Positions 45,308 to 57,815 of a DNA stretch of 64,000 nt are shown here, in pieces; position 1 is the stretch's first letter; each line of letters begins with the position of its first letter. The DNA is from Iocasia fonsfrigidae (GTDB lineage Bacteria > Bacillota > Halanaerobiia > Halanaerobiales > DTU029), in contig NZ_CP046640.1 in the NCBI RefSeq assembly GCF_017751145.1, positions 2,956,137 to 3,020,136 of the forward strand, given 5' to 3'. Below the pieces are notes generated by a model. The model was not told where the DNA came from. It saw only the letters and a list, made by a program, of their open reading frames with translations, and ran no database searches. Both the position numbers and the translations under genes were made by a program.

Positions 45308-47830
45308 TTGAAAAGAATATTATTTCTATTTTTTTATTTGTTTTTGATAATAATACCTGTTTCATCAATAGGATTGGCTACATCTATTTCTGATTGGAAG
45401 ACTTATGAAACAGATGATTTTATTATCTTTTATCCTCAAGGGTATGAAGCTCAGGCCAAAGAAACTCTCTATTATTTAAGTAAATATAAATCTAAAGTGG
45501 ATACACTCACAGGTAATGATAATAAGATTAAAACACGCATTGTAATTCAGGATAGCGGCTTATTAACTGATGGTGAAGCTGACCCTATATCTGTTAAAAT
45601 TAGCATTTTCACTTGTAATCCAGAGCTTTTTTCAAATATGATAAGTTATGATAGCTGGTTAAGACTGGTCAGTGTCCATGAGTATACACATATATCTCAA
45701 ATGACTAATAGCAGTGGAACAGCATCTTCCTTAACTAAAATATTTGGTAATTATTTTTCACCAAATATCCATATCCCACTGTGGATGATGGAAGGAATTA
45801 CTGTATATAGTGAATCACAAGTCAGCCCTTATGAAGGGAGATTAAATGGTGGATATTTTGATACCTTTATAGCAAGTAAAGCAGCCGAGGGCAAATTACC
45901 ATCTATTTTAGAAGCCAATTATGGGCATAATCATTTCCCTTTCGGACAATATTATCTTTATGGTGGAGAATTCTTTAAATATTTAGCAGCAACTTATGGT
46001 GAAGAGAAAATCACCCAATTTTTTAACGAATATGGGTCATATTACTGGACACCTATAATAGGAGATTTCTTCCCTGCTCTAGGTATCGATAAAGCAGCAA
46101 AAAAAATATATGGTAAAACCTTTCCACAATTATTTGAAGAATGGCAGTTAAATGAAACAAACAAATATAAAGATTGGAAAATAAGTGGAACAGCGGTCGT
46201 TAAAAATAAACTAGGTGGAAGTATTTATGGTTTAAATTATGCCAAGAAAAAATTATATTATTTTAAAGTTAAACGCATTACTCCAGGACCTTTCAGATAT
46301 TTTGAATTATATAACTTAGTAGAATATGATTTGCAGAATAATAAAGAAAGAATTTTAAAAACTTTTTCTGAACCCTGGAATGGTATGATTCAAATAGTAA
46401 ACAACAAATTATATTTTTCTCTTCTTGATAAATCAGGAGAAAATGCTATTTTACATAGTTATGACTTGAAAACAAACCAAATACAAAAAATATTAAAAGA
46501 TGATTTTAATGATTTCACTGTTTTAGATGATGAAATAATTATTTATGCCAAGAAAAATAAGGATAAATACGGTTCAGAAATATGGAAATATAGTAATAAA
46601 GACAAGCAAAAAATAGGGATTACGTTAGAGCTTATTAGCGAAATGAAATCTTATCAAGATAAATTTATTGTAGTTAGTAAAGAAGCTGTCGGTTCTTATG
46701 GCATAAAATATTTAAATATTGACGATCTATCTTTAGAAGCAATTATTGATACTCCTTATGCTGAAGCAAATATGAACCTAATAGGAGATAAACTTTATTA
46801 TAATAGTAACTACCAAGGATTTACTACTACCTATCAATATGATTTATACAAAAAGAAATTAGTTGAATTTACTGATGGTAATAACTCGATAAGAGGTATT
46901 CAAGCACTTGATTATAAAGATAATCTTTATTTTACTTCAATTTCTGCTGAAGAAATCAACTTATATAAAACTCCTTTAAATTATGAACCAGTACCAATAC
47001 CCAAAACGGAAAATGTTGAAAGCGATGTTGACTTAGCTGATTTAGATATTGAAATAAAAGAAGGAAATGGATTGTCTAAAAGCTTAAGTTATTTGCTTAA
47101 ACCAAATATAAGACTTTTCCCATCTTTATTGGCTGGACAAGATGCATTGGGTTTAAATTCCTATTCGATAGACTATTCTGATGATGGATTAGATTATTAT
47201 TTCAACTCACAAATGTTATTACCATTTACTATAAGTCATGCTACACCAGATGATGATGACGAGGAAAGAGAGACAAAATTAGATTTATTTCTCCCTTTAT
47301 CTTCAAATGTAATCTTAGATTATAATACTAATTTTAGTGAAGATGCTATTCCAGGCATAAGGTTTCTTTTACCTTCAGTTAGACAAAATCTAGCACTTTA
47401 TTTACAAACTAACGTTAATAGTGATGGTGTTAATAGTGAATTGAATTACAGTTATTTATTTGATAATAGTAGTATTATTTTCCAAGGAAGTAAATTCGAA
47501 GATTTTGAAAAAGATGCTGATATTAGGGGTTTTGATTTTGACGATTTTGATAATGGTTACCAGGGGAGCCTTGAATATCTTTACAAATTAGCAGAAATAA
47601 AAAAGGGGTTATGGAATCCAAATATCTTTATTGGTGATATTTATGCTAGTGTTTTCGTTGACTACTTTAATGATACTGATTTAGATAATGAAGAATCAGC
47701 CTATGGCTATGAATTATCTTTTGAAATAGGTATGGCACAGCAAATTCATTTTGTTCCTATGATTGGTGTTGCTGTATCTGATGATGATACAGAAAAATAT
47801 CTTGGTTTTAAAATCCTTGGTTTTTTCTAG
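45308..47830 (+). CDS. Outer-membrane gluzincin metalloprotease with beta-propeller and C-terminal barrel
   Basis: 840 residues from TTG at 45308 (MKRILFLFFYLFLIIIPV), which has AAGGGGG nine bases upstream; the frame is open further back but that part lacks a ribosome site. After the signal peptide comes a peptidase MA-like domain (about 30-290) with the zinc motif H124-E-Y-T-H128 in VHEYTHISQ and the third ligand E162 in WMMEGITVYSE. Residues 300-560 are repeated short strands like a TolB-type propeller (NNKLYFSLLDKSGENAILHS, DKLYYNSNYQG). Residues 590-840 are amphipathic strands ending in GFKILGFF, a terminal-Phe barrel signature. Predicted outer-membrane anchored protease or surface processing protein; substrate unknown. 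Confidence 0.75.
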   Translation: MKRILFLFFYLFLIIIPVSSIGLATSISDWKTYETDDFIIFYPQGYEAQAKETLYYLSKYKSKVDTLTGNDNKIKTRIVIQDSGLLTDGEADPISVKISIFTCNPELFSNMISYDSWLRLVSVHEYTHISQMTNSSGTASSLTKIFGNYFSPNIHIPLWMMEGITVYSESQVSPYEGRLNGGYFDTFIASKAAEGKLPSILEANYGHNHFPFGQYYLYGGEFFKYLAATYGEEKITQFFNEYGSYYWTPIIGDFFPALGIDKAAKKIYGKTFPQLFEEWQLNETNKYKDWKISGTAVVKNKLGGSIYGLNYAKKKLYYFKVKRITPGPFRYFELYNLVEYDLQNNKERILKTFSEPWNGMIQIVNNKLYFSLLDKSGENAILHSYDLKTNQIQKILKDDFNDFTVLDDEIIIYAKKNKDKYGSEIWKYSNKDKQKIGITLELISEMKSYQDKFIVVSKEAVGSYGIKYLNIDDLSLEAIIDTPYAEANMNLIGDKLYYNSNYQGFTTTYQYDLYKKKLVEFTDGNNSIRGIQALDYKDNLYFTSISAEEINLYKTPLNYEPVPIPKTENVESDVDLADLDIEIKEGNGLSKSLSYLLKPNIRLFPSLLAGQDALGLNSYSIDYSDDGLDYYFNSQMLLPFTISHATPDDDDEERETKLDLFLPLSSNVILDYNTNFSEDAIPGIRFLLPSVRQNLALYLQTNVNSDGVNSELNYSYLFDNSSIIFQGSKFEDFEKDADIRGFDFDDFDNGYQGSLEYLYKLAEIKKGLWNPNIFIGDIYASVFVDYFNDTDLDNEESAYGYELSFEIGMAQQIHFVPMIGVAVSDDDTEKYLGFKILGFF

Positions 47831-47963
47831 TGTTATAATTAGTTAGCTTTCTTTTAAATAACCTATCATTAATAATCTACAGACATCTTCTACAATACAT
47901 CTAAGCAAAGTAAGACAAAAGTATAAGCTTATTTTGGGACAAATAATTTCAAACAATTTTTCT

Positions 47964-47996
47964 AAAAAAGGCACCCTATTGCAGGATGCCTTTTTA
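47964..47996. terminator. Bidirectional intrinsic terminator between the protease gene and adhE
   Basis: AAAAAGGCA-C-CC / GG-A-TGCCTTTTT stem with a short loop; T-runs follow on both strands. It serves the converging plus-strand protease gene and the long minus-strand hydrogenase-rex-adhE operon. Confidence 0.85.
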
Positions 47997-48025
47997 CTAT
48001 AGATTATTATTAATTCTAAGTATGT

Positions 48026-50629
48026 TTAAGAACCATAAGCCTGACGGTAGACCTCTTTTAGCTCCGTTACTAGCGGCATTCTGGGATTAGTACCAGTACA
48101 CTGGTCATTAAAGGCAATGTCTGCCATATCATCCAGTTCCTTTTCAAACTCTTTCTTTTCCACACCAGCCTCTGCTAAACTTAAGGGCACCTTTACTTCT
48201 TTCATCAAGTCTTTTACAGCTTTGATCAGGCTATCAACTCCCTTTTCACTGGTATCTGCGGGCAGCTCCAACATTTCTGCAATCTCAGCATACCTCTGGT
48301 CAGCCTTGGGATATTCATACTGTGGAAAAGCCGCCAGTTTACTTGGTTTACCAGCATTATATTTAATAACATGAGGAAGTAGAATAGCATTTGCCCTGCC
48401 GTGTGGTATATGGAACTTACCACCAAGAATATGTGCCATACTATGATTAATCCCCAGAAAGGCATTAGTAAAGGCCATACCGGCAAGGCAGGAAGCATTA
48501 TGCATTTTCTCTCTGGCCTCTTTATCACTACCATCTTTATATGCCCTTGGTAAATATTTAAAGACTAACTTAATAGCCTTCTCTGCCAGAGCATCTGTAT
48601 AATCAGAAGCCATCACAGACACATAAGCTTCAATAGCATGTGTTAAAACATCCAGACCTGTATCAGCAGTTACAGAGGCTGGTACAGTCATAACCAGTTC
48701 CGGATCAATAACAGCTATATCTGGAGTAAGTTCATAATCTGCCAATGGATATTTTATATTCTTCTTTTTATCTGTTATTACTGAAAAAGCGGTAACCTCT
48801 GACCCTGTACCGGAAGTGGTAGGAACAGCTACAAAAGTCGCTCTCCTCCCCAGGGCTGGAAACTTAAAGGCCCTCTTTCTGATATCCATAAACTTAAGTT
48901 TTAAATCATCAAATTTAATATCCGGGTGTTCATAAAACAACCACATTCCTTTAGCAGCATCCATTGCTGAACCACCACCAAGGGCAATAATAAGGTCAGG
49001 TTCAACATCTTCCATAGCCTGACAGCCACGCTGCACTGTTTCGACAGATGGATCAGGCTCCACATCAGAAAAAACCTCCATTGCTATATCTGCTTTATCT
49101 AGCTGATAGGCCACCTTATCAACAAAACCAAGGTCGACCATGGTCTGGTCTGTGATAATAAAGGCAGTCTTACCTTTTAATTTGCTTAAGTATTGTAAAG
49201 AACCATATTCAAAATATAGTTTTGGTGGAACCTTAAACCACTTCATCCTTTCCTTACGAATAGTTACCTTCTTAATATTCAATAGGTTCTTAACACTAAC
49301 ATTATCAGTTGTTGAGTTTCTACCCATTGAACCACAGCCTAAAGTTAGTGAAGGGTTATTAGTATTATAGATATTTCCAATAGCACCATGTGAAGAAGGT
49401 GAATTAACCAGCAGCCTCCCTGTTCTGATACGTTCACTAAATTTATTAATAACCTCTCTATCATTAGAGTGAATAACCGCTGAATGACCTAATCCTCCAA
49501 ATTCTGTCATCTCTTCACAACGTTTAATACCCTCCTGATAGTTTTTTACCACATAACAGGCCAGAATAGGACTTAACTTCTCACGGGACAAAGGATAATC
49601 AGGACCAACACCCTCTAATTCAGCAATCAGTATCTTGGTATCCTCTGGCACCTTAATCCCAGCCATCCTGGCAATTTTGGCAGCAGATTGACCAACAACA
49701 GCAGGACTCATAGCATTTTTTTCTTGATTTATAGCTATCCTGGATAAACTCTTTATTTCATTTTTATTAAGGAAGTAACAATTATTCTCTTTCATCAGGT
49801 CTTTGACCTCATCAGCAACATCCTGATCTATAATAATTGCCTGTTCTGAGGCACAGATAGTGCCGTTATCAAAGGTTTTGCTTAAAATAAGGTCAGCTAC
49901 TGCCTGTTTAAGGTTAGCACTTTTTTCAATATAACAGGGAACATTACCAGGACCAACACCAAGGGCAGGTTTACCACTGGAATAAGCTGATTTAACCATA
50001 CCAGACCCACCTGTAGCCAGTATCAGATGAATATCCTGGTGTTTCATCAAATAATTAGTAGCCTCCAAGGAAGGTTTTTCTATCCAGAGAATGCAATCCT
50101 CCGGTGCACCTGCTGCAACAGCTGCCTCTTTCATTACCCTGGCTGCTTCTATACTACATTTTAAGGCAGTCGGATGGAAACTAAAGATAATAGGGTTTCT
50201 TGTTTTAGCACAGATTAATGACTTAAACATAGTAGTAGAAGTAGGGTTGGTTACTGGTGTAAGACCAGCAATAACCCCAATTGGCTCAGCTACCTCCTGA
50301 TAATTTTCAGCTGGATTTTCTGATATAATTCCAACTGTTTTTTCATATTTAATATCATGATAGACATATTCAGATGAAAAAAGATTTTTGGTAATCTTAT
50401 CTTCATAAACCCCCATACCAGTTTCCTGATGAGCCATCCTGGCCAGTTCAATGTGCTTATCTACCCCTGCCAGGGCCATTCTTTTAGTTATCTCATTGAT
50501 TTTATCCTGACTCAGTTTTTTATATTCTTCACCCGCCCTGACCGCCTTCCTGACTAATCTATCAACCATTTCCTCAACTGTTTCATTTTCCTTAAGAGTA
50601 GCAATCCTTTTTGCAGTACTAGTAGTCAT
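48026..50629 (-). CDS. adhE: AdhE: bifunctional acetaldehyde / alcohol dehydrogenase
   Basis: Reduces acetyl-CoA to ethanol with two NADH. 867 residues: N-terminal CoA-acylating aldehyde dehydrogenase (catalytic C259 in DNGTICASEQAI, GVGPGNVPCYIE) and C-terminal iron alcohol dehydrogenase (ALGGGSAMDAAKGMWLFYEH, VPTTSGTGSEVT, metal site DTGLDVLTHAIEAYV and FLGINHSMAHILGGKFHIPH). The ATG has a GGAGGG site. It lies 33 bases after rex, the last gene of the Rex-controlled operon, so that high NADH would turn on both hydrogenase and ethanol genes. Confidence 0.97.
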   Translation of the reverse strand: MTTSTAKRIATLKENETVEEMVDRLVRKAVRAGEEYKKLSQDKINEITKRMALAGVDKHIELARMAHQETGMGVYEDKITKNLFSSEYVYHDIKYEKTVGIISENPAENYQEVAEPIGVIAGLTPVTNPTSTTMFKSLICAKTRNPIIFSFHPTALKCSIEAARVMKEAAVAAGAPEDCILWIEKPSLEATNYLMKHQDIHLILATGGSGMVKSAYSSGKPALGVGPGNVPCYIEKSANLKQAVADLILSKTFDNGTICASEQAIIIDQDVADEVKDLMKENNCYFLNKNEIKSLSRIAINQEKNAMSPAVVGQSAAKIARMAGIKVPEDTKILIAELEGVGPDYPLSREKLSPILACYVVKNYQEGIKRCEEMTEFGGLGHSAVIHSNDREVINKFSERIRTGRLLVNSPSSHGAIGNIYNTNNPSLTLGCGSMGRNSTTDNVSVKNLLNIKKVTIRKERMKWFKVPPKLYFEYGSLQYLSKLKGKTAFIITDQTMVDLGFVDKVAYQLDKADIAMEVFSDVEPDPSVETVQRGCQAMEDVEPDLIIALGGGSAMDAAKGMWLFYEHPDIKFDDLKLKFMDIRKRAFKFPALGRRATFVAVPTTSGTGSEVTAFSVITDKKKNIKYPLADYELTPDIAVIDPELVMTVPASVTADTGLDVLTHAIEAYVSVMASDYTDALAEKAIKLVFKYLPRAYKDGSDKEAREKMHNASCLAGMAFTNAFLGINHSMAHILGGKFHIPHGRANAILLPHVIKYNAGKPSKLAAFPQYEYPKADQRYAEIAEMLELPADTSEKGVDSLIKAVKDLMKEVKVPLSLAEAGVEKKEFEKELDDMADIAFNDQCTGTNPRMPLVTELKEVYRQAYGS

Positions 50630-50662
50630 CTTTTCATCCCTCCACTTATTTTCTTATATACC

Positions 50663-51313
50663 TTATGATTTTGACCCAAATTTTTCATCAATCATATATG
50701 ACAGTGTCAATAGACTCTCACTAATGTGCACATTTTCAACCAGTACCTTTCCACTGTAGTTTAAACTAACTGGAGCAAAATTCCAGATACCCCTTATCCC
50801 CCCCCTTACAAAGATATCTGCAACATCTACAGCACTCTCTGGTGGTGTAGTAATAATACCGATATCTATCCTATTATTTGTCAAAAAGTCAGCCAGCAGA
50901 CTGATATCCTGAACAAGAAGACCAGCAACCTCCTGCCCAATAAGCTCTGGATTTACATCAAATATTCCTTTAATATAAAACCCCCTTCTCTTAAAATTAG
51001 GATAATTAATAATTGCCTTACCAAGGTTTCCAGCCCCGGCAAGCACCATATCCATTTGATTATCTAAACCAAGTATCTTAGCAATTGCCTCCTTTAAATT
51101 AGCAACTCTATAGCCATACCCCCGTTGACCAAAATTACCAAACTGACTTAGATCCTGTCTTATCTGAGAAGCAGTAACACCCAATTTTTCCGCTAATTCA
51201 CTTGAGGATATTCTCTCAACCCCTTTTGAATGTAATGTAGTAAGAAAGCGGTAATAGACAGGCAGTCTTTTAATAACACTTACTGCTATTGGCTTCTCCT
51301 TCTTTTTAGACAT
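50663..51313 (-). CDS. rex: Rex: redox-sensing transcriptional repressor
   Basis: Senses the NADH/NAD+ ratio; NADH releases it from DNA. 216 residues: winged helix (LPVYYRFLTTLHSKGVERIS, ASQIRQDLSQFGNFGQRGYG), Rossmann fold (VLAGAGNLGKAIINYPNF, IGIITTPPESAVDVADIFV) and the C-terminal swapped helix. The gene overlaps the hydrogenase stop (GAGATGAATGTCTAA), so it is translated with it. The only perfect Rex palindrome in the window is in front of this same operon, so Rex should control itself. Confidence 0.97.
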   Translation of the reverse strand: MSKKKEKPIAVSVIKRLPVYYRFLTTLHSKGVERISSSELAEKLGVTASQIRQDLSQFGNFGQRGYGYRVANLKEAIAKILGLDNQMDMVLAGAGNLGKAIINYPNFKRRGFYIKGIFDVNPELIGQEVAGLLVQDISLLADFLTNNRIDIGIITTPPESAVDVADIFVRGGIRGIWNFAPVSLNYSGKVLVENVHISESLLTLSYMIDEKFGSKS

Positions 51314-52778
51314 TCATCTCCACCTCTCTGCTCATCTTCTTTAAAAGTCCCTTGGCCTTAGCCGGACCTGTCATGGTACCAGGCCCACCTATACAACCAT
51401 CCTGACAGCCCATTCCTTCCATAAAATCTATTTTAAATACCCCTCTGGAAATTTGTTTTAATAATTTATCACAATCCCTTATTCCAGCAGCAGTTTTAAC
51501 CTGTAACCCATCTCTTTCCATACTATTTAAAATAGCCTTACTAACCCCTCCAGCAGCACAGAAATTCAAGGCATCAATAGAGGGATTTTCAAGATTATTA
51601 TCTCTTCTGGACTTTTCACCACCCAGTTTAGCCAGATTAATACCTGCCCCTACTAAAACAGCAGCAATCTCTTCATAGGTAAGCACTCCATCTATTAGAC
51701 CATTACTTTCTCTTATCGCTTCACCCTTTTTCGCCAGACAGGGACCAATAAATATATTTTTAATATCATCATCACCCGACTTCTTAAGCAGTCTAGCAGT
51801 TTTAAGCATAGGTGACTCAGTAGTAGAGATACCAGCGGTTAATTCTGGGTAATGTTTATTTATTAAATTTTTAAAAGAAGGACAGCAAGAATTAAAGGTA
51901 ACACCTTTATTAAATTCTATATTTTCCAGCAATTCCCTGCTTTCTTCTCTAATTACCTCATCAGCACCAGCTGCTACCATAACAACCCTGGTAAACCCAA
52001 GCTTTTTTAAACCCTCTTTAAGTACATCCCAGTCTACTCCTGGTCCAAATTGCCCAATAAATGATGGGGCTACCAGAGCAACTGTTTCTGATTGACTATG
52101 CCTTAACATTTTAATGGCATTTACTATTTCAGACCTGTATGAAATAGCACCAAAGGGACAGGCAACAATACAGGCACCACACTCAACACAATTGCCTTCT
52201 TCAATAGCAGCACTGGCCTTATCTCCGGATACTATTGCATCAACAGCACAGGCCCTACTACAGGGACGTTCTATCTCTACTATTGCACCATAGGAACAGG
52301 CCTTAGCACATAGGCCACATTCAATACACTTTTCTCTGATTATAAAAGCCCTGTTATCAACTATTTTGATTGCATCCCGGGGACAGCTATTAACACAATT
52401 ATGGGCTACACAGTTACGACAGGCATTAGTAACAAACATCTTATCTATTGAACAATGGTCACAGGCCTCCTCAATCAAAGTAATATATGGTTTATCACTT
52501 CTTGCTACTGGTTGATCAAGTACATTCCTGGCCAATTCCTCAAGCCTCTTCTTACTATCTTCTGCTGTAATATCTATCCCTAAAGCAAGTTTAATTCTTT
52601 CTTGAAGAATCGCCTGTTCTTTATATTGACAACAACGGTAACTTGTTAAGCCTTCATCTGTTAATTTCTTTGGTAAGCCCTCAACATCTTCAACTAATCT
52701 ATTATTAAATATTAAAGCAGCAACCTCTGTAAGGACCCTCCGGCGTATCTTGGTTACTTCTGAAATGACTTCAGCCAT
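51306..52778 (-). CDS. [FeFe] hydrogenase, non-canonical (group C/D-like)
   Basis: 490 residues. The N-terminal helical region (1-95) includes RCCQYKEQAI. A ferredoxin region follows with four-Cys motifs (CDHCSIDKMFVTNACRNCVA, EKCIECGLCAKACSYGAI, GNCVECGACIVACPFGAI), then the H-cluster domain. H-cluster motifs: L1 FNSCCPSF (C298, C299), L2 GPCLAKKGE, L3 EGMGCQDGCIGGPG. The four cluster cysteines are present, but L1 is NSCCP rather than TSCCP and L2 lacks the usual Met (GPC for MPC), as in sensory or Hfs-type enzymes rather than classic HydA. It may be catalytic with the small [2Fe-2S] protein encoded upstream, or have a regulatory role. Confidence 0.88.
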   Translation of the reverse strand: MAEVISEVTKIRRRVLTEVAALIFNNRLVEDVEGLPKKLTDEGLTSYRCCQYKEQAILQERIKLALGIDITAEDSKKRLEELARNVLDQPVARSDKPYITLIEEACDHCSIDKMFVTNACRNCVAHNCVNSCPRDAIKIVDNRAFIIREKCIECGLCAKACSYGAIVEIERPCSRACAVDAIVSGDKASAAIEEGNCVECGACIVACPFGAISYRSEIVNAIKMLRHSQSETVALVAPSFIGQFGPGVDWDVLKEGLKKLGFTRVVMVAAGADEVIREESRELLENIEFNKGVTFNSCCPSFKNLINKHYPELTAGISTTESPMLKTARLLKKSGDDDIKNIFIGPCLAKKGEAIRESNGLIDGVLTYEEIAAVLVGAGINLAKLGGEKSRRDNNLENPSIDALNFCAAGGVSKAILNSMERDGLQVKTAAGIRDCDKLLKQISRGVFKIDFMEGMGCQDGCIGGPGTMTGPAKAKGLLKKMSREVEMNV

Positions 52779-52798
52779 TTTATTTCACCACCTTAGCT

Positions 52799-53038
52799 TT
52801 ATATTAAACTTTTTTTAATCTCCTCAACAACAGTTTCAGGTGTAACCTTATCCAACAGTACACCGGCTATTCGCACATTTGGACCCTTACCACACCTATC
52901 CATACACTGTACATACCTTAAGTCAATTCTTTCCTTTATATTGTCTGCCAGTCTATCCAGACATTCCATAATCAAATTACTTCCCATCAAGTGACAGGAG
53001 GTACCAACACAAACCTCTACACTTATCTTTTCACTCAT
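52799..53038 (-). CDS. Thioredoxin-like [2Fe-2S] protein (NuoE/HydC-like), 79 aa
   Basis: Stand-alone version of the [2Fe-2S] domain of NuoE. Ligand pattern C-x4-C (VCVGTSCHLMGS) and C-x3-C (YVQCMDRCGKGPNVRI). It is about half the length of full HydC/NuoE, lacking the N-terminal helices. Encoded 13 bases after the phosphatase and 20 bases before the hydrogenase, so it is probably an electron carrier or subunit for it. Confidence 0.88.
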   Translation of the reverse strand: MSEKISVEVCVGTSCHLMGSNLIMECLDRLADNIKERIDLRYVQCMDRCGKGPNVRIAGVLLDKVTPETVVEEIKKSLI

Positions 53039-53050
53039 CTACTTAACCCC

Positions 53051-54217
53051 CTAATATCTCTCTATATTTACTTCTTTTCCATGTTTACGAAGCAGATTAA
53101 CTAATTTACCGATTATTACTGGTCTAGGCTTTAACTGGAGTGACTTCATCAGCTCTTCATGTGCTGGATTTACAGCTGACCCCATCAGAAAAGTAATCTC
53201 ATCGGCCTTTAAAAGGGATTTACTTAGAATACTTGCCCCGTCTTTTATACCATCAAATTCATTCTTATTATCATTAAAATTATCTTCAGACAATTGTTTG
53301 ATTTTATCCACTGTCTTATTTAGGGTTAATATCCCTTCTGTTACCAGGTCTATACCTTCAATGTCAGCTACTGGTGGTACACTAGGGTCTATATAATCCA
53401 GTGATGTTTCTATCTCAAACCCAAGTTCCCGGGCAACCATATTACCAGTAGCCCCACCACAAACTATTTTTTGGGCATTGGTATAATCAAGAAATTTAGC
53501 TACTAGCTGACTATCGTATCTCTTTTTCTGAGGGGGACCTGTCAGAACAACGGCAGACCTTGGTCTCCTTGATTTAATAACAAGAGCAGTAGAATCATCC
53601 CCTGCTTTTCCCATATAACAGGCCTCTGTCAGGCCAATAATCTTCTTAGCAACCTTATCTGCTGCTTGCTCTGTCAGATTGCGTTTGAAAATATTATCAA
53701 GTAAACGATCGCGTCCTAGTCCCAGTTCAAAGAGTCCTCCTACCCCTGCATTAATAACCCCATCACTGATCAGAAATAACAGGTCATTTAATTCGAGTTG
53801 AAAAAAACTCTCATATACCTCTTTACCTGCTATATTCCTCTTTATCTTCTTGATAGAGACAATATCATTATCCCTGATTAACATAAGTGAAGGGTTATCA
53901 TATTCTATCAAATGAGCACTACCATCTATTTTCACTTTCAGAATTGATAATGTTGAATAAGCAATCCCTCTTACCTTACAAATCGGGAGTGTATCAGCAA
54001 TTGTTGTAAATACTTCTTCCAGCCTAATATTCTTCTCCAGCATCCTGGAAGCTATCTGAGTAGAAAGGATTGATAAGATACTGGCTTTAATACCACTACC
54101 CAGTCCATCAGATAATATAACAGTAGTTGAATCCTTTTCTTCGATTATTTTTGTAGTATCACCACACACCTCTTCCCCTTTTTTGCAAAGACTGGCAATG
54201 CCGATGTCAACTTTCAT
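53051..54217 (-). CDS. SpoIIE/PP2C-type serine phosphatase of the hydrogenase operon
   Basis: 388 residues from the ATG at 54217. The N-terminal 220 residues are a PP2C-like (SpoIIE) fold: TTVILSDGLGSGIKASILS with metal-binding Asp, LLFLISDGVINAGVGG and GKAGDDSTALVIKSRRP. The C-terminal 170 residues (VVLTGPPQKKRYDSQLVAKF, KIVCGGATGNMVARELG) are conserved in hydrogenase-linked phosphatases but have no assigned role that I can state. It overlaps the sensory hydrogenase gene. In other fermenters, sensory hydrogenase genes stand beside such phosphatases, suggesting H2-dependent control of protein phosphorylation; the target is unknown. Confidence 0.88.
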   Translation of the reverse strand: MKVDIGIASLCKKGEEVCGDTTKIIEEKDSTTVILSDGLGSGIKASILSILSTQIASRMLEKNIRLEEVFTTIADTLPICKVRGIAYSTLSILKVKIDGSAHLIEYDNPSLMLIRDNDIVSIKKIKRNIAGKEVYESFFQLELNDLLFLISDGVINAGVGGLFELGLGRDRLLDNIFKRNLTEQAADKVAKKIIGLTEACYMGKAGDDSTALVIKSRRPRSAVVLTGPPQKKRYDSQLVAKFLDYTNAQKIVCGGATGNMVARELGFEIETSLDYIDPSVPPVADIEGIDLVTEGILTLNKTVDKIKQLSEDNFNDNKNEFDGIKDGASILSKSLLKADEITFLMGSAVNPAHEELMKSLQLKPRPVIIGKLVNLLRKHGKEVNIERY

Positions 54218-55925
54218 CTTCACCTGTATTCGCCTCTTTTCTATTCATTATATCAATTAATTCAAGAAGTGTTGCTTTAGTCTCTGCTGTACTTTCACCC
54301 AGTAAACCAGCAATCTGCTGGGCAACTTTCATCTGTTCACGTATTACCCTTTTGGCCTTATTAAGGGCTGACAGCTTCATATCATCAATCTCTGCCTTGC
54401 GTTTTTCTTCTGCTGTTACATCAGTAATTAATCCTATTACAACCCCATATTTTTCCAGCGGATAAATACTTTCCCTGGTTATCAAACTATACTGTTCATA
54501 TTCCTTATATTTATCAGTAATTATCTCCTGATTATCCCTGACTTCAATATAATCTGCCGGATCAACAAAGGAAGATAAATATTTACCTTTAGGCTTAATA
54601 CCTTTTCTATTAAACATTTTCTCAGCTGTTGGATTAAATTCTTGAATAATCATATCTTCACTGACGATAATAATGCCATTTAAAGAACTGTCAACAACTG
54701 CATGTGATAGTGATTCTGCTTTTTCCCGCATATATGGGATACACATCTCCACTTCAGCCCTCCCATTATATACCGCTACAGCCTTTTCCCGACAACTGGA
54801 ATAACCACAACCACCGCAATTACTTTCATCCTCTGGGGTAAACTTACCTGTCAAGGCAAGAATCTCCCTTATCTCTTCTTCACTAGGCAATTTATCCTTC
54901 TGCTGATAATGTCGATATTTCCTTTGATAATTTCTAGGAGAAATATCATTTTCCTCATTAAATCGGGGTGTATCTTCTATAAACTCACTTAATCTCATCT
55001 TGCGATGGGCAACACCATAATCATTAGCCATAGCCGGCCCACCAATACAGCCCCCCTTACAACCAAGGGCCTCAACAAAACGGGGACTTATCAATCCCTC
55101 TTCCATATCTTTAAAGACCTCTATAGCTTCCTCTACACCCGAAACGGTAATTACATCACCCAGGAGTGAGCCCTTTATTCCTGCTACTTCAAGTATCCCC
55201 CTGTGTAGTGGATAGGCCCTCGCCCTTGAAGAAATACAATCAGGATAGATATCTGCCAGACTATCTGCTTCAATACCTTTGTCCTTAAAAAACTCTATTA
55301 TTTCTTCAAAAGTCAAAACAGCATCTAAAGGATTATCTTCATCCCAGCTGAGCTCCTCCTTTTTACTAAAACAGGGGCCGATAAAGATAATTTTATAATC
55401 CTCACCCAATTTTTCGCTTAATAAACGAGCATGAATCATCATCGGTGACATAACAGGGGACAATTTATCTATTAGACTATGAAAATTTTTTTCTATCAAA
55501 CTTACAATAGTAGGACAGCAACTTGATATTAACGAATCATCACCTTCATCATGACAGACATCATAATATTCCCTGCTAACTATCTCCGCAGCCAGAGCCG
55601 TCTCTTCAATTACAGCTATCCCCAGTTCTTTAAGACCAGCTACTAATTTCCAGGGGGTTTGATAAGTTGTAGCTGCCAGATATGAAGGGGCTAAACTCAC
55701 TGCTATTTTTTCTCCATCAAGCAGATACTTATCCAGAATATCTATAGCAGATACTGTCGTCTTAGCATTCTGTGGACATATCTCTATACATCTACCACAT
55801 AAAATACATCTTTCTTCTATTACCCAGGCCTGATCATCATTTAAACCAATTGCCTTTAGGGGACAGTGTCTTATACATTTGTAACAATCCTTACATTTAG
55901 CTTCACTGGTTAAAATAATAGCCAT
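54207..55925 (-). CDS. Sensory-type [FeFe] hydrogenase with PAS domain (HydS-like)
   Basis: 572 residues. Two N-terminal [4Fe-4S] motifs (CKDCYKCIRHCPLKAI, RCILCGRCIEICPQNAK); H-cluster domain with L1 ISSCCPTI (C136, C137), L2 GPCFSKKEE and L3 EALGCKGGCIGGPA; an extra Fe-S domain CGGCGYSSCREKAVAVYNGR with EVEMCIP; then a PAS domain (about 405-520, VVDSSLNGIIIVSEDMIIQE) and a C-terminal helix rich in charged residues. GPC replaces MPC. This architecture matches group C putative H2 sensors. It precedes and overlaps the phosphatase gene, a likely output partner. Confidence 0.9.
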   Translation of the reverse strand: MAIILTSEAKCKDCYKCIRHCPLKAIGLNDDQAWVIEERCILCGRCIEICPQNAKTTVSAIDILDKYLLDGEKIAVSLAPSYLAATTYQTPWKLVAGLKELGIAVIEETALAAEIVSREYYDVCHDEGDDSLISSCCPTIVSLIEKNFHSLIDKLSPVMSPMMIHARLLSEKLGEDYKIIFIGPCFSKKEELSWDEDNPLDAVLTFEEIIEFFKDKGIEADSLADIYPDCISSRARAYPLHRGILEVAGIKGSLLGDVITVSGVEEAIEVFKDMEEGLISPRFVEALGCKGGCIGGPAMANDYGVAHRKMRLSEFIEDTPRFNEENDISPRNYQRKYRHYQQKDKLPSEEEIREILALTGKFTPEDESNCGGCGYSSCREKAVAVYNGRAEVEMCIPYMREKAESLSHAVVDSSLNGIIIVSEDMIIQEFNPTAEKMFNRKGIKPKGKYLSSFVDPADYIEVRDNQEIITDKYKEYEQYSLITRESIYPLEKYGVVIGLITDVTAEEKRKAEIDDMKLSALNKAKRVIREQMKVAQQIAGLLGESTAETKATLLELIDIMNRKEANTGEDES

Positions 55926-55938
55926 ATATCTTGCCTCC

Positions 55939-56184
55939 CTATATATCTAAACGTTTTTCTAATTCATCGATTATATTATCTTTTGTGATATTTGTTACAA
56001 TCTCTTCATTAAACTTGACTACAACCCCTTCGGTACAATGACCCTGACAGAAACAGGCCTTTAGTTTTATCTCTATCTTTGCTTCATTTTCAGCAATATA
56101 GCCCTGTAATATATTGATAATCCCTCTTGAACCCTTAACATGACAGCCACTTCCAATACAAACAGTAATATTAATTCTCAGCAC
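55939..56184 (-). CDS. Thioredoxin-like [2Fe-2S] protein (NuoE/HydC-like), 81 aa
   Basis: First gene of the operon. C-x4-C (TVCIGSGCHVKGSRG) and C-x3-C (LKACFCQGHCTEGVVVKF) form the cluster site. A paralogue of the 79-residue protein encoded further down. The GTG start overlaps its ribosome site (AGGGGGTG), so translation may really begin a few codons later at a rare codon. Confidence 0.85.
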   Translation of the reverse strand: MLRINITVCIGSGCHVKGSRGIINILQGYIAENEAKIEIKLKACFCQGHCTEGVVVKFNEEIVTNITKDNIIDELEKRLDI

Positions 56185-56207
56185 CCCCTACTGACAGGTC
56201 ATTTTCT

Positions 56208-56227
56208 TTTGTTAAATATTTAACAAA
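56208..56227. promoter_or_regulatory. Rex operator, 20-bp perfect palindrome
   Basis: TTTGTTAAATATTTAACAAA contains the consensus Rex site TTGTTAA-n4-TTAACAA with no mismatch. It lies in the leader of the hydrogenase-rex-adhE operon, 24 bases before the first start codon and about 45 bases after the expected transcription start. Confidence 0.92.
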
Positions 56228-56279
56228 GAAGAACAAAAAAAATAACTGGTCTTTGTTATATAATTCACATTTTAATTAT

Positions 56280-56307
56280 ATTATAGCATATATCTACTCT
56301 ATGTCAA
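56280..56307 (-). promoter_or_regulatory. Sigma-A promoter of the hydrogenase-rex-adhE operon
   Basis: Minus-strand TTGACA (56302-56307), 16-bp spacer, TATAAT (56280-56285): consensus hexamers, the strongest promoter in the window. Confidence 0.85.
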
Positions 56308-56324
56308 GACAGTTCATAGATCTT

Positions 56325-56342
56325 TTGTTAGGAATTTAACTT
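56325..56342. promoter_or_regulatory. Possible second Rex site upstream of the promoter
   Basis: TTGTTAGGAATTTAACTT matches the Rex consensus at 13 of 18 positions and lies 17 bases upstream of the -35 box. With the perfect site at 56208-56227 it would bracket the promoter, their centres about 116 bp apart. Confidence 0.4.
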
Positions 56343-56350
56343 ATATTATT

Positions 56351-56368
56351 AAAAAGGATTCACCTTTT
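56351..56368 (-). terminator. Weak terminator at the end of the DUF389 gene
   Basis: On the minus strand AAAAGG - TGAAT - CCTTTTTAATA overlaps the gene's stop codon. A short stem with a modest T-run. Confidence 0.4.
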
Positions 56369-57590
56369 ATGTTTTAATTTCTTTAATTGGTATAATTTTA
56401 AAATTAATACTATATTCATTGTTCAATTTATCACTTATTTCCTTTTTAATATCATTAAGAAAATCTGTACTAATCGATTCATCGGCATATAGATAGGCAT
56501 TTATTAATTTACCCTGAATTTCTATATCTTCTATTCGATAGCTCCAATCCATCACAAGCCTTTCTTTTATTACTGACTTTATTATATCTTTTGGTTTTTC
56601 AATATAAAATTGATGTACAGTAAGTATACCTAATGGTACAGAAAGCAAAATTACTGAAATAACAAAGAATACCATACTCTTCTTGACAATCTTCTGGGCT
56701 TTAACTTCATACCACATCTGAGGTCTCACCCCTTTAAAATAAAAAACTATCAGGGTAGCCAGTAATAAAGAAAGATAGTTACCAGCCAGTAATAGTGAAG
56801 CACCAATAATCATAGTAGTATAACCAAAAGAAAGACCAATGCCTATTGTACTCATCACTGGTAACAGGGCAGCTGCCACCATTACACCGACCAGACCAGA
56901 CCCTGGCTGCCCCCGCTTAACAAGGGAATAAGCACCTGCTGCACCTGCTGCCATAGCTATAAATAAATCAGCCAGTGTTGGATACATCCTGATTCTCAAT
57001 GAACTTGTAATATCAACATTTGGTATAAAAAGCCCAAAGATTGCCCCTACTACCACTGCCAATACAACTGCCAGTATTTCAGCAGCAATACCTTTTCTGA
57101 TTAACTTATTATCTCCTAAAACAATCCCAATCGTAATACCCAGTATTGGCCCCAATACTGGAGCAATAACCATTCCCCCAACAATAACAGCTACATTATC
57201 CAGTATTAAACCAAGACTGGTAATAATTGAAGAAAATATAACCAGGAAAACATATTCACTATTAATACCTGACTTTTCCTGGGCAAAGGTTATTAATGAC
57301 TCCCGGCTGGCATGGAAATTTGCTTTCCTAACCTTTTTCCTGTCTCTAGGAATTACAGTATCAGGTGTAAAGATTATTAAACTTCTTTCCTTATCCCCTT
57401 TAAAGTCAAATCTGCTCATCAAATTATCCAGGAGTATATCAGCATCACCATAGAGCAGATTTATAATTAAAAGATCACCAGTTTCTGATTTTATTAACTT
57501 ATAATCTTGTATATCCACACCAAGAGTATTGAGGAACTTAACAGCCTCCTTACCCTCCCCCGGTCGAAAAACCGCATGAACAATCTGCAT
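56367..57590 (-). CDS. DUF389 integral membrane protein
   Basis: 407 residues from the ATG at 57590 (MQIVHAVFRPGEGKEAVKF), preceded by GGGGGG; the upstream TTG at 57626 lacks a site. The N-terminal 110 residues are a soluble alpha/beta domain; about six membrane helices follow (SSIITSLGLILDNVAVIVGG, MVIAPVLGPILGITIGIVLG, AAGAAGAYSLVKRGQPGSGL), and a soluble C-terminal tail. The family (TIGR00341-type) is widespread and of unknown function. It is monocistronic. Confidence 0.88.
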   Translation of the reverse strand: MQIVHAVFRPGEGKEAVKFLNTLGVDIQDYKLIKSETGDLLIINLLYGDADILLDNLMSRFDFKGDKERSLIIFTPDTVIPRDRKKVRKANFHASRESLITFAQEKSGINSEYVFLVIFSSIITSLGLILDNVAVIVGGMVIAPVLGPILGITIGIVLGDNKLIRKGIAAEILAVVLAVVVGAIFGLFIPNVDITSSLRIRMYPTLADLFIAMAAGAAGAYSLVKRGQPGSGLVGVMVAAALLPVMSTIGIGLSFGYTTMIIGASLLLAGNYLSLLLATLIVFYFKGVRPQMWYEVKAQKIVKKSMVFFVISVILLSVPLGILTVHQFYIEKPKDIIKSVIKERLVMDWSYRIEDIEIQGKLINAYLYADESISTDFLNDIKKEISDKLNNEYSINFKIIPIKEIKT

Positions 57591-57596
57591 AAAAAT

Positions 57597-57634
57597 CCCC
57601 CCTTTGTAGCTACTAGTTTTCAACAAAGAAGGGG
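57597..57634 (-). promoter_or_regulatory. Leader hairpin that would mask the DUF389 ribosome site
   Basis: On the minus strand CCCC-TT-CTTTG pairs with CAAAG-GGGG, nine base pairs with a two-base bulge, and the 3' arm contains the GGGGGG ribosome site seven bases before the ATG. The structure could set a low or conditional translation rate. Confidence 0.35.
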
Positions 57635-57667
57635 TTTTTATGCTTTAGTACGTTAAACCTATTAGGA

Positions 57668-57815
57668 AAGTTTTTTCAGTATTTCAATTTTATTTCTCCT
57701 TCAGATTGATTAAAGCGCTTAGTCATTTTTCTAGCATAACTTCTCTCCTTCACCAGTTGTTCATCAGAGGTGTTATAAAAAGTTCTCCTGCTAACATTTT
57801 TTCCTTTTCTGTCAT
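57668..57815 (-). pseudogene. Remnant of a second maltose-type O-acetyltransferase gene (N-terminal fragment)
   Basis: The minus strand reads [11 protein letters not shown], then after a one- or two-base indel FYNTSDEQLVKERSYARKMT and KRFNQSEGEIKLKY, then a stop at 57676. This matches the first 50 residues of the intact gene at 62096-62638 ([20 protein letters not shown]), and DNA similarity runs on to about 57668. Everything beyond is missing. It is a duplicated and decayed 5' end. Confidence 0.75.

Follow-up and report, generated by a model that had tools for sequence, protein, structure and literature searches.

How fermenting bacteria divide electrons between H2 and ethanol has a practical bearing on rumen methane and on biofuel strains, and hfs operons stand at the heart of this question. 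A 64,000-nucleotide stretch (hereafter the window) of the 3.93 Mb single-contig genome of Iocasia fonsfrigidae places an NADH-reading repressor, an H2-linked sensor with a phosphatase, and an ethanol enzyme on one stretch of DNA, in a lineage far from the species that have been studied. The question raised by this locus is whether its genes form a single circuit, and under whose control that circuit would stand.

The locus consists of seven minus-strand open reading frames (ORFs) running from 56184 to 48026, with successive gaps of 13, -17, 12, 20, -8 and 33 bases, the 17-base overlap being that of the HydS and HfsC genes. In coding order they specify a small [2Fe-2S] protein, the sensory hydrogenase HydS, the phosphatase HfsC, a second small [2Fe-2S] protein, the hydrogenase HydA2, Rex and AdhE (Table 1). 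An initial annotation had described seven same-strand genes that overlap or lie at most 33 bases apart; each ORF was found at its place and on its strand, and the family labels were borne out by family scans. The description of HydS as a PAS-containing sensory hydrogenase held in part, since Fe_hyd_lg_C and the C-terminal FeS domain (PF04060) score over their cut-offs but the PAS match (PF00989), at 20.0 bits, falls under its cut-off of 22.6. The locus is almost certainly an hfs-type operon to which rex and adhE have become attached.

The same annotation had placed a consensus promoter and a perfect Rex site in front of the operon, and both are there. The promoter, matching at 12 of 12 positions, is the sole such site within 47800-57700, and the palindrome at 56209-56226 is the only match to TTGTTAANNNNTTAACAA in the window that is free of mismatches. 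At up to three mismatches the window holds 23 Rex-pattern sites against 16.0 expected, and 7 of 100 shuffles reach that number, which leaves weight only on the perfect palindrome. The whole genome has four perfect Rex sites and three more with one mismatch; because a backward control pattern also yields three sites at up to one mismatch, the one-mismatch sites do not stand out, but the perfect ones do. Two of the perfect sites form a pair in front of a zinc-type alcohol dehydrogenase gene, one precedes an iron-type alcohol dehydrogenase and one precedes this operon, and one of the three one-mismatch sites precedes an acyl-CoA dehydrogenase gene. To judge from these sites, the operon is very probably under Rex control; co-transcription of its seven genes and binding of Rex to the palindrome are predicted from the layout and the DNA sequence.

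Rex-like sites and gene order at related operons

Neighbourhoods were collected outward from the phosphatase gene, and 103 were obtained: 20 stretches from relatives and from the genome itself (part of 29 full-length HfsC matches in 61 relatives' genomes), three plasmid records, two of which have HfsC, and 80 named contigs, ranked highest among at least 578 confirmed loci. The proportions given here hold for HfsC proteins similar to that of the window. HfsC is present in 102 of the 103, and 101 of these are distinct once the duplicate L088 (identical to L059) is dropped. Many contigs end short and the loci are related to one another to an unmeasured degree, hence no probability is given with the counts.

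The front of each operon was defined as the 400 bases before it and the first 50 bases within it, which left 90 usable fronts, as 11 of the 101 were too short. In a first count with TTGTTAANNNNTTAACAA, 3, 12 and 27 of the 101 fronts had a site at zero, up to one and up to two mismatches, respectively. That count revealed TTGTGAA half-sites, and the widened pattern TTGTKAANNNNTTMACAA was chosen afterwards, that is, after a look at the data. With up to one mismatch, TTGTKAANNNNTTMACAA is found in 21 of the 90 operon fronts (the window's included), compared with 4 of 1105 fronts of other ORFs, the latter being mechanical ORFs of at least 150 amino acids (aa) from the same loci rather than verified genes. 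When the half-sites are reversed, the corresponding numbers are 1/90 and 2/1105, and base-shuffled fronts give a count of 0.05 on average. Perfect matches occur in six operon fronts and in none of the others, and at up to two mismatches the counts are 36/90 versus 16/1105, with 4/90 and 16/1105 for the reversed pattern. Sites with at most one mismatch stand before 10 of the 17 operons near which rex or adhE was found, and before 11 of the 73 with neither. Because Rex-like sites are enriched in operon fronts relative to these controls, Rex control looks recurrent at hfs operons. A literature search turned up no survey of Rex sites at hfs operons, and absence from print is not claimed.

The pairing of sensor and phosphatase is constant in the neighbourhoods. 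All 101 distinct HfsC loci sampled have the HydS gene ahead of the HfsC gene and on its strand, and the distances between the two genes (n=100, range -41 to 152 bases) are zero or overlapping in 75 cases and 50 bases or less in 94. Of the 86 loci with room for it, 70 have a small [2Fe-2S] gene ahead of HydS, and in 20 of 88 another such gene comes after HfsC. By comparison, rex is present in 14 of the 101 loci, always on the strand of HfsC, full-length adhE in eight, and both in five; a looser count of nine for adhE included a short match on the opposite strand in L051, which was dropped. Conservation of the order in relatives, a check proposed with the initial annotation, is therefore confirmed for HydS and HfsC, but rex and adhE are less frequent and their order varies. 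The order hydA2-rex, with or without adhE, is shared by the window, L045, L047, L048 and L049; a rex-adhE-kinase run is placed first in L039 and L123; rex stands directly first in L077, L100 and L107; and it follows a long hydrogenase gene in L059, L069 and L101. In L043, from the relative G001, HydS and HfsC are followed by rex, AdhE is matched beyond it only by an ORF of 61 residues, and there is no HydA2 match, so this locus is perhaps a decaying version of the window's operon. Homologues of a phosphotransferase from the Ruminococcus albus cluster discussed below adjoin adhE in L039, L122, L123 and L131, and a weak homologue lies between HfsC and HydA2 in L124. With 14 and 8 of 101 loci, rex and full-length adhE outnumber every other same-strand neighbour family apart from the query genes (at most 7 of 102). 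Their recurrence beside HydS-HfsC in several orders, together with the enrichment of Rex-like sites, agrees with the earlier view that rex and adhE are more than chance neighbours. It also points to a wide occurrence of Rex control at hfs operons and opens the putative link between hfsB and adhE to direct tests.

How the operon may work, and the alternatives

The explanation that we consider probable as a whole is a single Rex-repressed hfs-rex-adhE transcript with a second layer of control exerted through HydS and HfsC. An hfs-type operon would have had rex and adhE added at its 3′ end, and one transcript would start from the promoter at 56307-56280, with Rex repressing it from the downstream palindrome. 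At low NADH, NAD+-bound Rex would occupy the leader and block the transcript. As NADH rises, Rex would be released and the ferredoxin-type H2-evolving hydrogenase, AdhE and more Rex would be made, AdhE using up NADH for ethanol and the extra Rex acting as negative feedback. In the second layer, HydS would sense H2 or redox state at its H-cluster and relay the change via its C-terminal [4Fe-4S] cluster and PAS region to HfsC, made beside it, which would in turn dephosphorylate some protein that tunes the expression or activity of the hydrogenase and/or AdhE, the outputs being AdhE and HydA2. That HydS controls HfsC is itself a probable step; that H2 is the signal read by HydS has a chance only slightly better than even.

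Genetic work on Thermoanaerobacterium saccharolyticum bears on the second layer. Deletion of hfsA or hfsB is reported to raise the adhE transcript two- and threefold, and loss of HfsA or HfsB also raises NADH-linked alcohol dehydrogenase (NADH-ADH) activity, whereas adhE is described as not significantly changed after loss of HfsC or HfsD (PMC5707799). These deletion effects on adhE would fit HydS restraining HfsC.

Several observations weigh against the proposed circuit. In Thermoanaerobacterium thermosaccharolyticum, hfsD alone, with the rest of hfs absent, is reported to raise ethanol yield (PMC11837493); since hfsD alone suffices, the ethanol phenotype can arise from the hydrogenase without HfsC. 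The expression of rex is described as up, not down, in high-ethanol strains, and because deletion of hfsA has a polar effect, lowering the downstream hfs genes two- to sixfold, the hfs genetics are clouded (PMC5707799). Within the stretches examined, rex was not found in 87 and adhE not in 93 of the 101 loci, and even where 6 kb or more is available on each side (55 loci), rex occurs in eight, adhE in seven and both in three. L041, a locus fetched through HydS, showed no HfsC, though HydS without HfsC had no systematic search, and HfsC is patchy, with no match in five of eight genomes of the bacterium's own family. The genome also has a second adhE (G000:C1:1968085-1970670), 64% identical to the one in the window, whose 5.6 kb locus has no Rex site at up to two mismatches, and a second rex, 39.5% identical, behind another hydrogenase cluster. 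That AdhE is the main ethanol enzyme, as the initial annotation had it, or that Rex is the one NADH sensor, is accordingly not established, and of the proposal that the operon is a single Rex-controlled circuit, the Rex part is supported by layout, recurrence and site enrichment, but the phosphatase signal to adhE is conjectural and the result with hfsD alone speaks against it.

The same result lends weight to an alternative in which no signal goes to transcription and HydA2/HfsD is instead acted on post-translationally by HydS, HfsC and the small [2Fe-2S] proteins, which would be subunits of it or would switch it by phosphorylation. Changes in ethanol and adhE would then follow an altered ferredoxin/NADH flux read by Rex, and Rex control would hand such flux changes on to adhE. 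In vitro hydrogenase activity is reported to be higher after deletion of hfsB (PMC5707799), as this alternative would have it, and of the 70 loci that extend 3 kb or more to either side, 54 have a catalytic-type hydrogenase match nearby. The remaining 16 have none, however, and because a group B hydrogenase lies within 4 kb downstream of HfsC in only 45 of 88 loci, HydA2 is not a general partner of HydS and HfsC. Moreover, the R. albus 7 cluster responds at the transcript level, its expression reportedly dropping 111-fold when an H2 consumer is grown alongside (Greening et al. 2019, PMC6776011), though Rex alone could explain this shift. An exclusively post-translational role is a rather unlikely alternative to the transcriptional circuit. 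It is very unlikely that only the Rex layer matters, with rex and adhE as passengers on an old hfs module and functionally unlinked to HydS and HfsC: the patchiness of rex and adhE would fit such passengers, as would the Rex-like sites at the 11 operons near which neither gene was found, but rex turns up in four or more gene orders and is in every case on the strand of HfsC.

Proteins, signals and neighbouring systems

The features of the operon are collected in Table 1.

Table 1. Features of the hfs-rex-adhE locus, in window coordinates.
Feature	Position (strand)	Description	Score
Sigma-70-type promoter	56280..56307 (-)	TTGACA (56307-56302), 16 nucleotides, TATAAT (56285-56280)	12/12 match
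Rex palindrome	56209..56226 (-)	TTGTTAAATATTTAACAA; roughly +47 to +64 relative to the estimated start of transcription	perfect
Small [2Fe-2S] protein, HfsA position	55939..56184 (-)	thioredoxin-like, 81 aa	PF01257, 32.3 bits (cut-off 24.8)
HydS/HfsB	54207..55925 (-)	572 aa; N-terminal [4Fe-4S] motifs, H-cluster domain, C-terminal CX2CX4CX16C, weak PAS	
HfsC	53051..54223 (-)	SpoIIE/PP2C-type phosphatase (about 1-220) and conserved C-terminal alpha/beta domain (about 221-390)	
Second small [2Fe-2S] protein	52799..53038 (-)	thioredoxin-like, 79 aa	PF01257, 38.3 bits (over cut-off)
HydA2/HfsD	51306..52778 (-)	group B1 [FeFe] hydrogenase, 490 aa	TIGR04105 (NCBI model), 514.5 bits (cut-off 450)
Rex	50663..51313 (-)	redox-sensing repressor, 216 aa	NF003990, 296.7 bits (cut-off 233)
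AdhE	48026..50629 (-)	bifunctional acetaldehyde/alcohol dehydrogenase, 867 aa	NF010378, 1396.4 bits (cut-off 951)
Terminator-like element	47960..47995 (-)	intrinsic-terminator-like stem-loop and T-run after adhE	fold -17.5 kcal/mol

The GTG start of the first gene abuts a purine-rich AGGGGG run, a would-be ribosome site, and the true start codon is uncertain. In the region scanned for signals, promoter-like and terminator-like sites show no excess over shuffled sequence (35 against 34.0 and 6 against 6.0, respectively), and the stem-loop after adhE was not picked up by the terminator scan of that region. An 11/12 sigma-70-like site on the coding strand inside hydS (54694-54667) may be an internal start before hfsC, or chance. 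Control of the operon by sigma-54 was rejected: the genome has two exact sigma-54-type sites and the window has none. Just upstream, on the same strand, lies a gene for a DUF389 membrane protein (56367-57626), and only a weak hairpin (-5.0 kcal/mol) separates it from the operon promoter. Loci L042-L045, which include that of the window itself, have a DUF389 homologue close to the hfs operon.

HydS keeps the H-cluster cysteines C137, C185, C289 and C293, and the four cysteines of its C-terminal motif are present in all 98 aligned sequences. Where the clostridial enzyme has M353, 93 of 95 sequences have Gly; the M497 position is Leu in the window protein and varies. At the proton-path position C299, HydS of the window has Cys (C136), as do 61 of 94 relatives.

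In HfsC, residues D22, D39, D154, D209 and D210 are invariant among 40 aligned sequences; we take these to be the metal-binding aspartates expected in a working PP2C phosphatase. The best folds for the first 220 residues are SpoIIE and PP2C, in agreement with the sequence match to SpoIIE (PF07228), which is confined to residues 31-217, and PDB sequence matches stop at profile position 224. The 170 residues beyond (221-390) are confidently predicted to form an alpha/beta domain (predicted local distance difference test, pLDDT, 91.6), which is conserved throughout the 40 aligned HfsC sequences and has strongly conserved GPP, GG, PP and TEG motifs. Pfam searches with 36 members of this domain gave a best E-value of 0.0037, the three matches of the window protein being under cut-off, and NBD_C was matched weakly in 3 of the 36. 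Foldseek returned no clear relative (best E 0.011, methylglyoxal synthase). The best VIA-align score was Z 8.4 (7bkb_H, 122 residues, root-mean-square deviation 3.5) and the next 5.7; because Z values of 7 to 8 are usual in VIA-align even without a relative, the predicted domain is read only as Rossmann-like alpha/beta, and nothing narrower. It is conceivable, if improbable, that HfsC is a two-input phosphatase whose C-terminal domain binds a nucleotide or metabolite, for example NAD(H) or an adenine nucleotide, and which receives H2 through HydS. If true, H2 and a second metabolic signal would be joined in HfsC, with Rex reading NADH on the same transcript, and a new phosphatase domain architecture would be found within a known operon type.

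In keeping with the initial annotation, which named no target for the phosphatase, none is proposed from the neighbourhood, as the 30 largest same-strand clusters in the 102 loci have, by eye, no member with the look of a STAS protein or anti-sigma kinase; query genes aside, no neighbour family occurs in more than 7 of the 102 loci, and the largest are of common multi-copy kinds. The genome itself has two STAS matches and seven HATPase_c_2 matches, one of the latter inside a separate hydrogenase cluster, and these are not proposed as targets because nothing ties them to HfsC.

Other hydrogenase systems are present in the same genome. The second rex (L142:9281-9925) lies behind a NuoE/NuoF/HydA-type hydrogenase cluster and adjoins another such cluster (gene labels by eye). 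About 14 kb before the window, an 873-aa protein (L002:187-2808; C1:2939914-2942532) has a HydS-like hydrogenase with C-terminal FeS motif and PAS fused to a sigma-54 activator AAA+ domain and a helix-turn-helix (HTH) domain, and would combine an H2 sensor and a transcription activator in a single chain. Read by eye, it has Ala at the C299 position, and the last H-cluster motif is shorter by one residue. Near-full-length relatives, with E up to 1e-150, occur in 3 further of 199 phylum genomes, and one narrow literature search turned up no description of such a protein. Elsewhere in the genome (L144:5840-16187), a bifurcating-type hydrogenase cluster with an RsbW-like ATPase includes a hydrogenase in which the C-terminal FeS motif is present but PAS is not matched at E 1e-6. 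This cluster, resembling the group D context, presumably also includes the DRTGG- and PHP-like genes so labelled by eye.

Known systems of the same kind

The system had been put forward as poorly described, a view that does not survive comparison with what is in print on R. albus 7, Clostridium thermocellum, HydDB group C3 and hfs genetics. Plasmid pRUMAL01 of R. albus 7 carries all seven gene families of the window operon in one run on one strand, and a circuit leading from H2 through sensory hydrogenase and phosphatase to AdhE and hydrogenase was already proposed there (Greening et al. 2019, PMC6776011). The two differ in arrangement. On pRUMAL01, rex and adhE come first and both small proteins precede HydS, whereas in the window rex and adhE come last and one small [2Fe-2S] gene lies between HfsC and HydA2. 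The R. albus run includes a gene for a kinase-like phosphotransferase, and there is no such ORF in the window between 48026 and 56184; a search of the I. fonsfrigidae genome with the R. albus protein found nothing, with no positive control run. The present locus is filed as hfs-type and not as the R. albus subtype because its run is without this gene. The proteins are also distant (37.5% identity for HydS and 37% for HfsC). The R. albus HydA2 gene is homologous to that of the window (291 bits); the R. albus ferredoxin hydrogenase is called group A1 (PMC6776011), and the window's HydA2 passes the B1 model.

The hfsABCD operon of Thermoanaerobacterium, as described in PMC11837493, resembles the window in its PAS hydrogenase HfsB, serine phosphatase HfsC, HydA2-like HfsD and extra first gene, HfsA, which is said to align poorly with known proteins. 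It consists of four genes, and by that description the window run is set apart by the addition of rex and adhE and by its two small [2Fe-2S] genes. The hfs operon has already been dissected genetically (PMC5707799, PMC11837493).

By its gene lists, the Cthe_0422-0430 region of C. thermocellum also has rex, adhE, sensory hydrogenase, SpoIIE and hydrogenase genes (PMC3848806, PMC3561251). There, a phosphotransferase follows adhE, a hypothetical protein and an Fe-S protein are classed as a sensory M2f hydrogenase, and expression of the region is reported to fall together after furfural (PMC3848806, PMC3561251). Compared by gene lists, this region ends in a trimeric bifurcating hydrogenase and the window has a group B enzyme instead.

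HydDB describes [FeFe] group C3 as putatively phosphatase-linked, with its role listed as undetermined (PMC5037454), and HydS of the window resembles this group by its linkage to a Ser/Thr phosphatase, the likeness being one of linkage alone. The sensory hydrogenase TmHydS of Thermotoga maritima has, like HydS, the C-terminal CX2CX4CX16C motif and Gly at the M353 position; the same source says that groups C and D do not conserve the proton-path residue C299 (PMC8163306), whereas HydS of the window retains it. Operons of this kind are already described, and the present locus, which is without a kinase-like gene, adds to them a gene order of its own.

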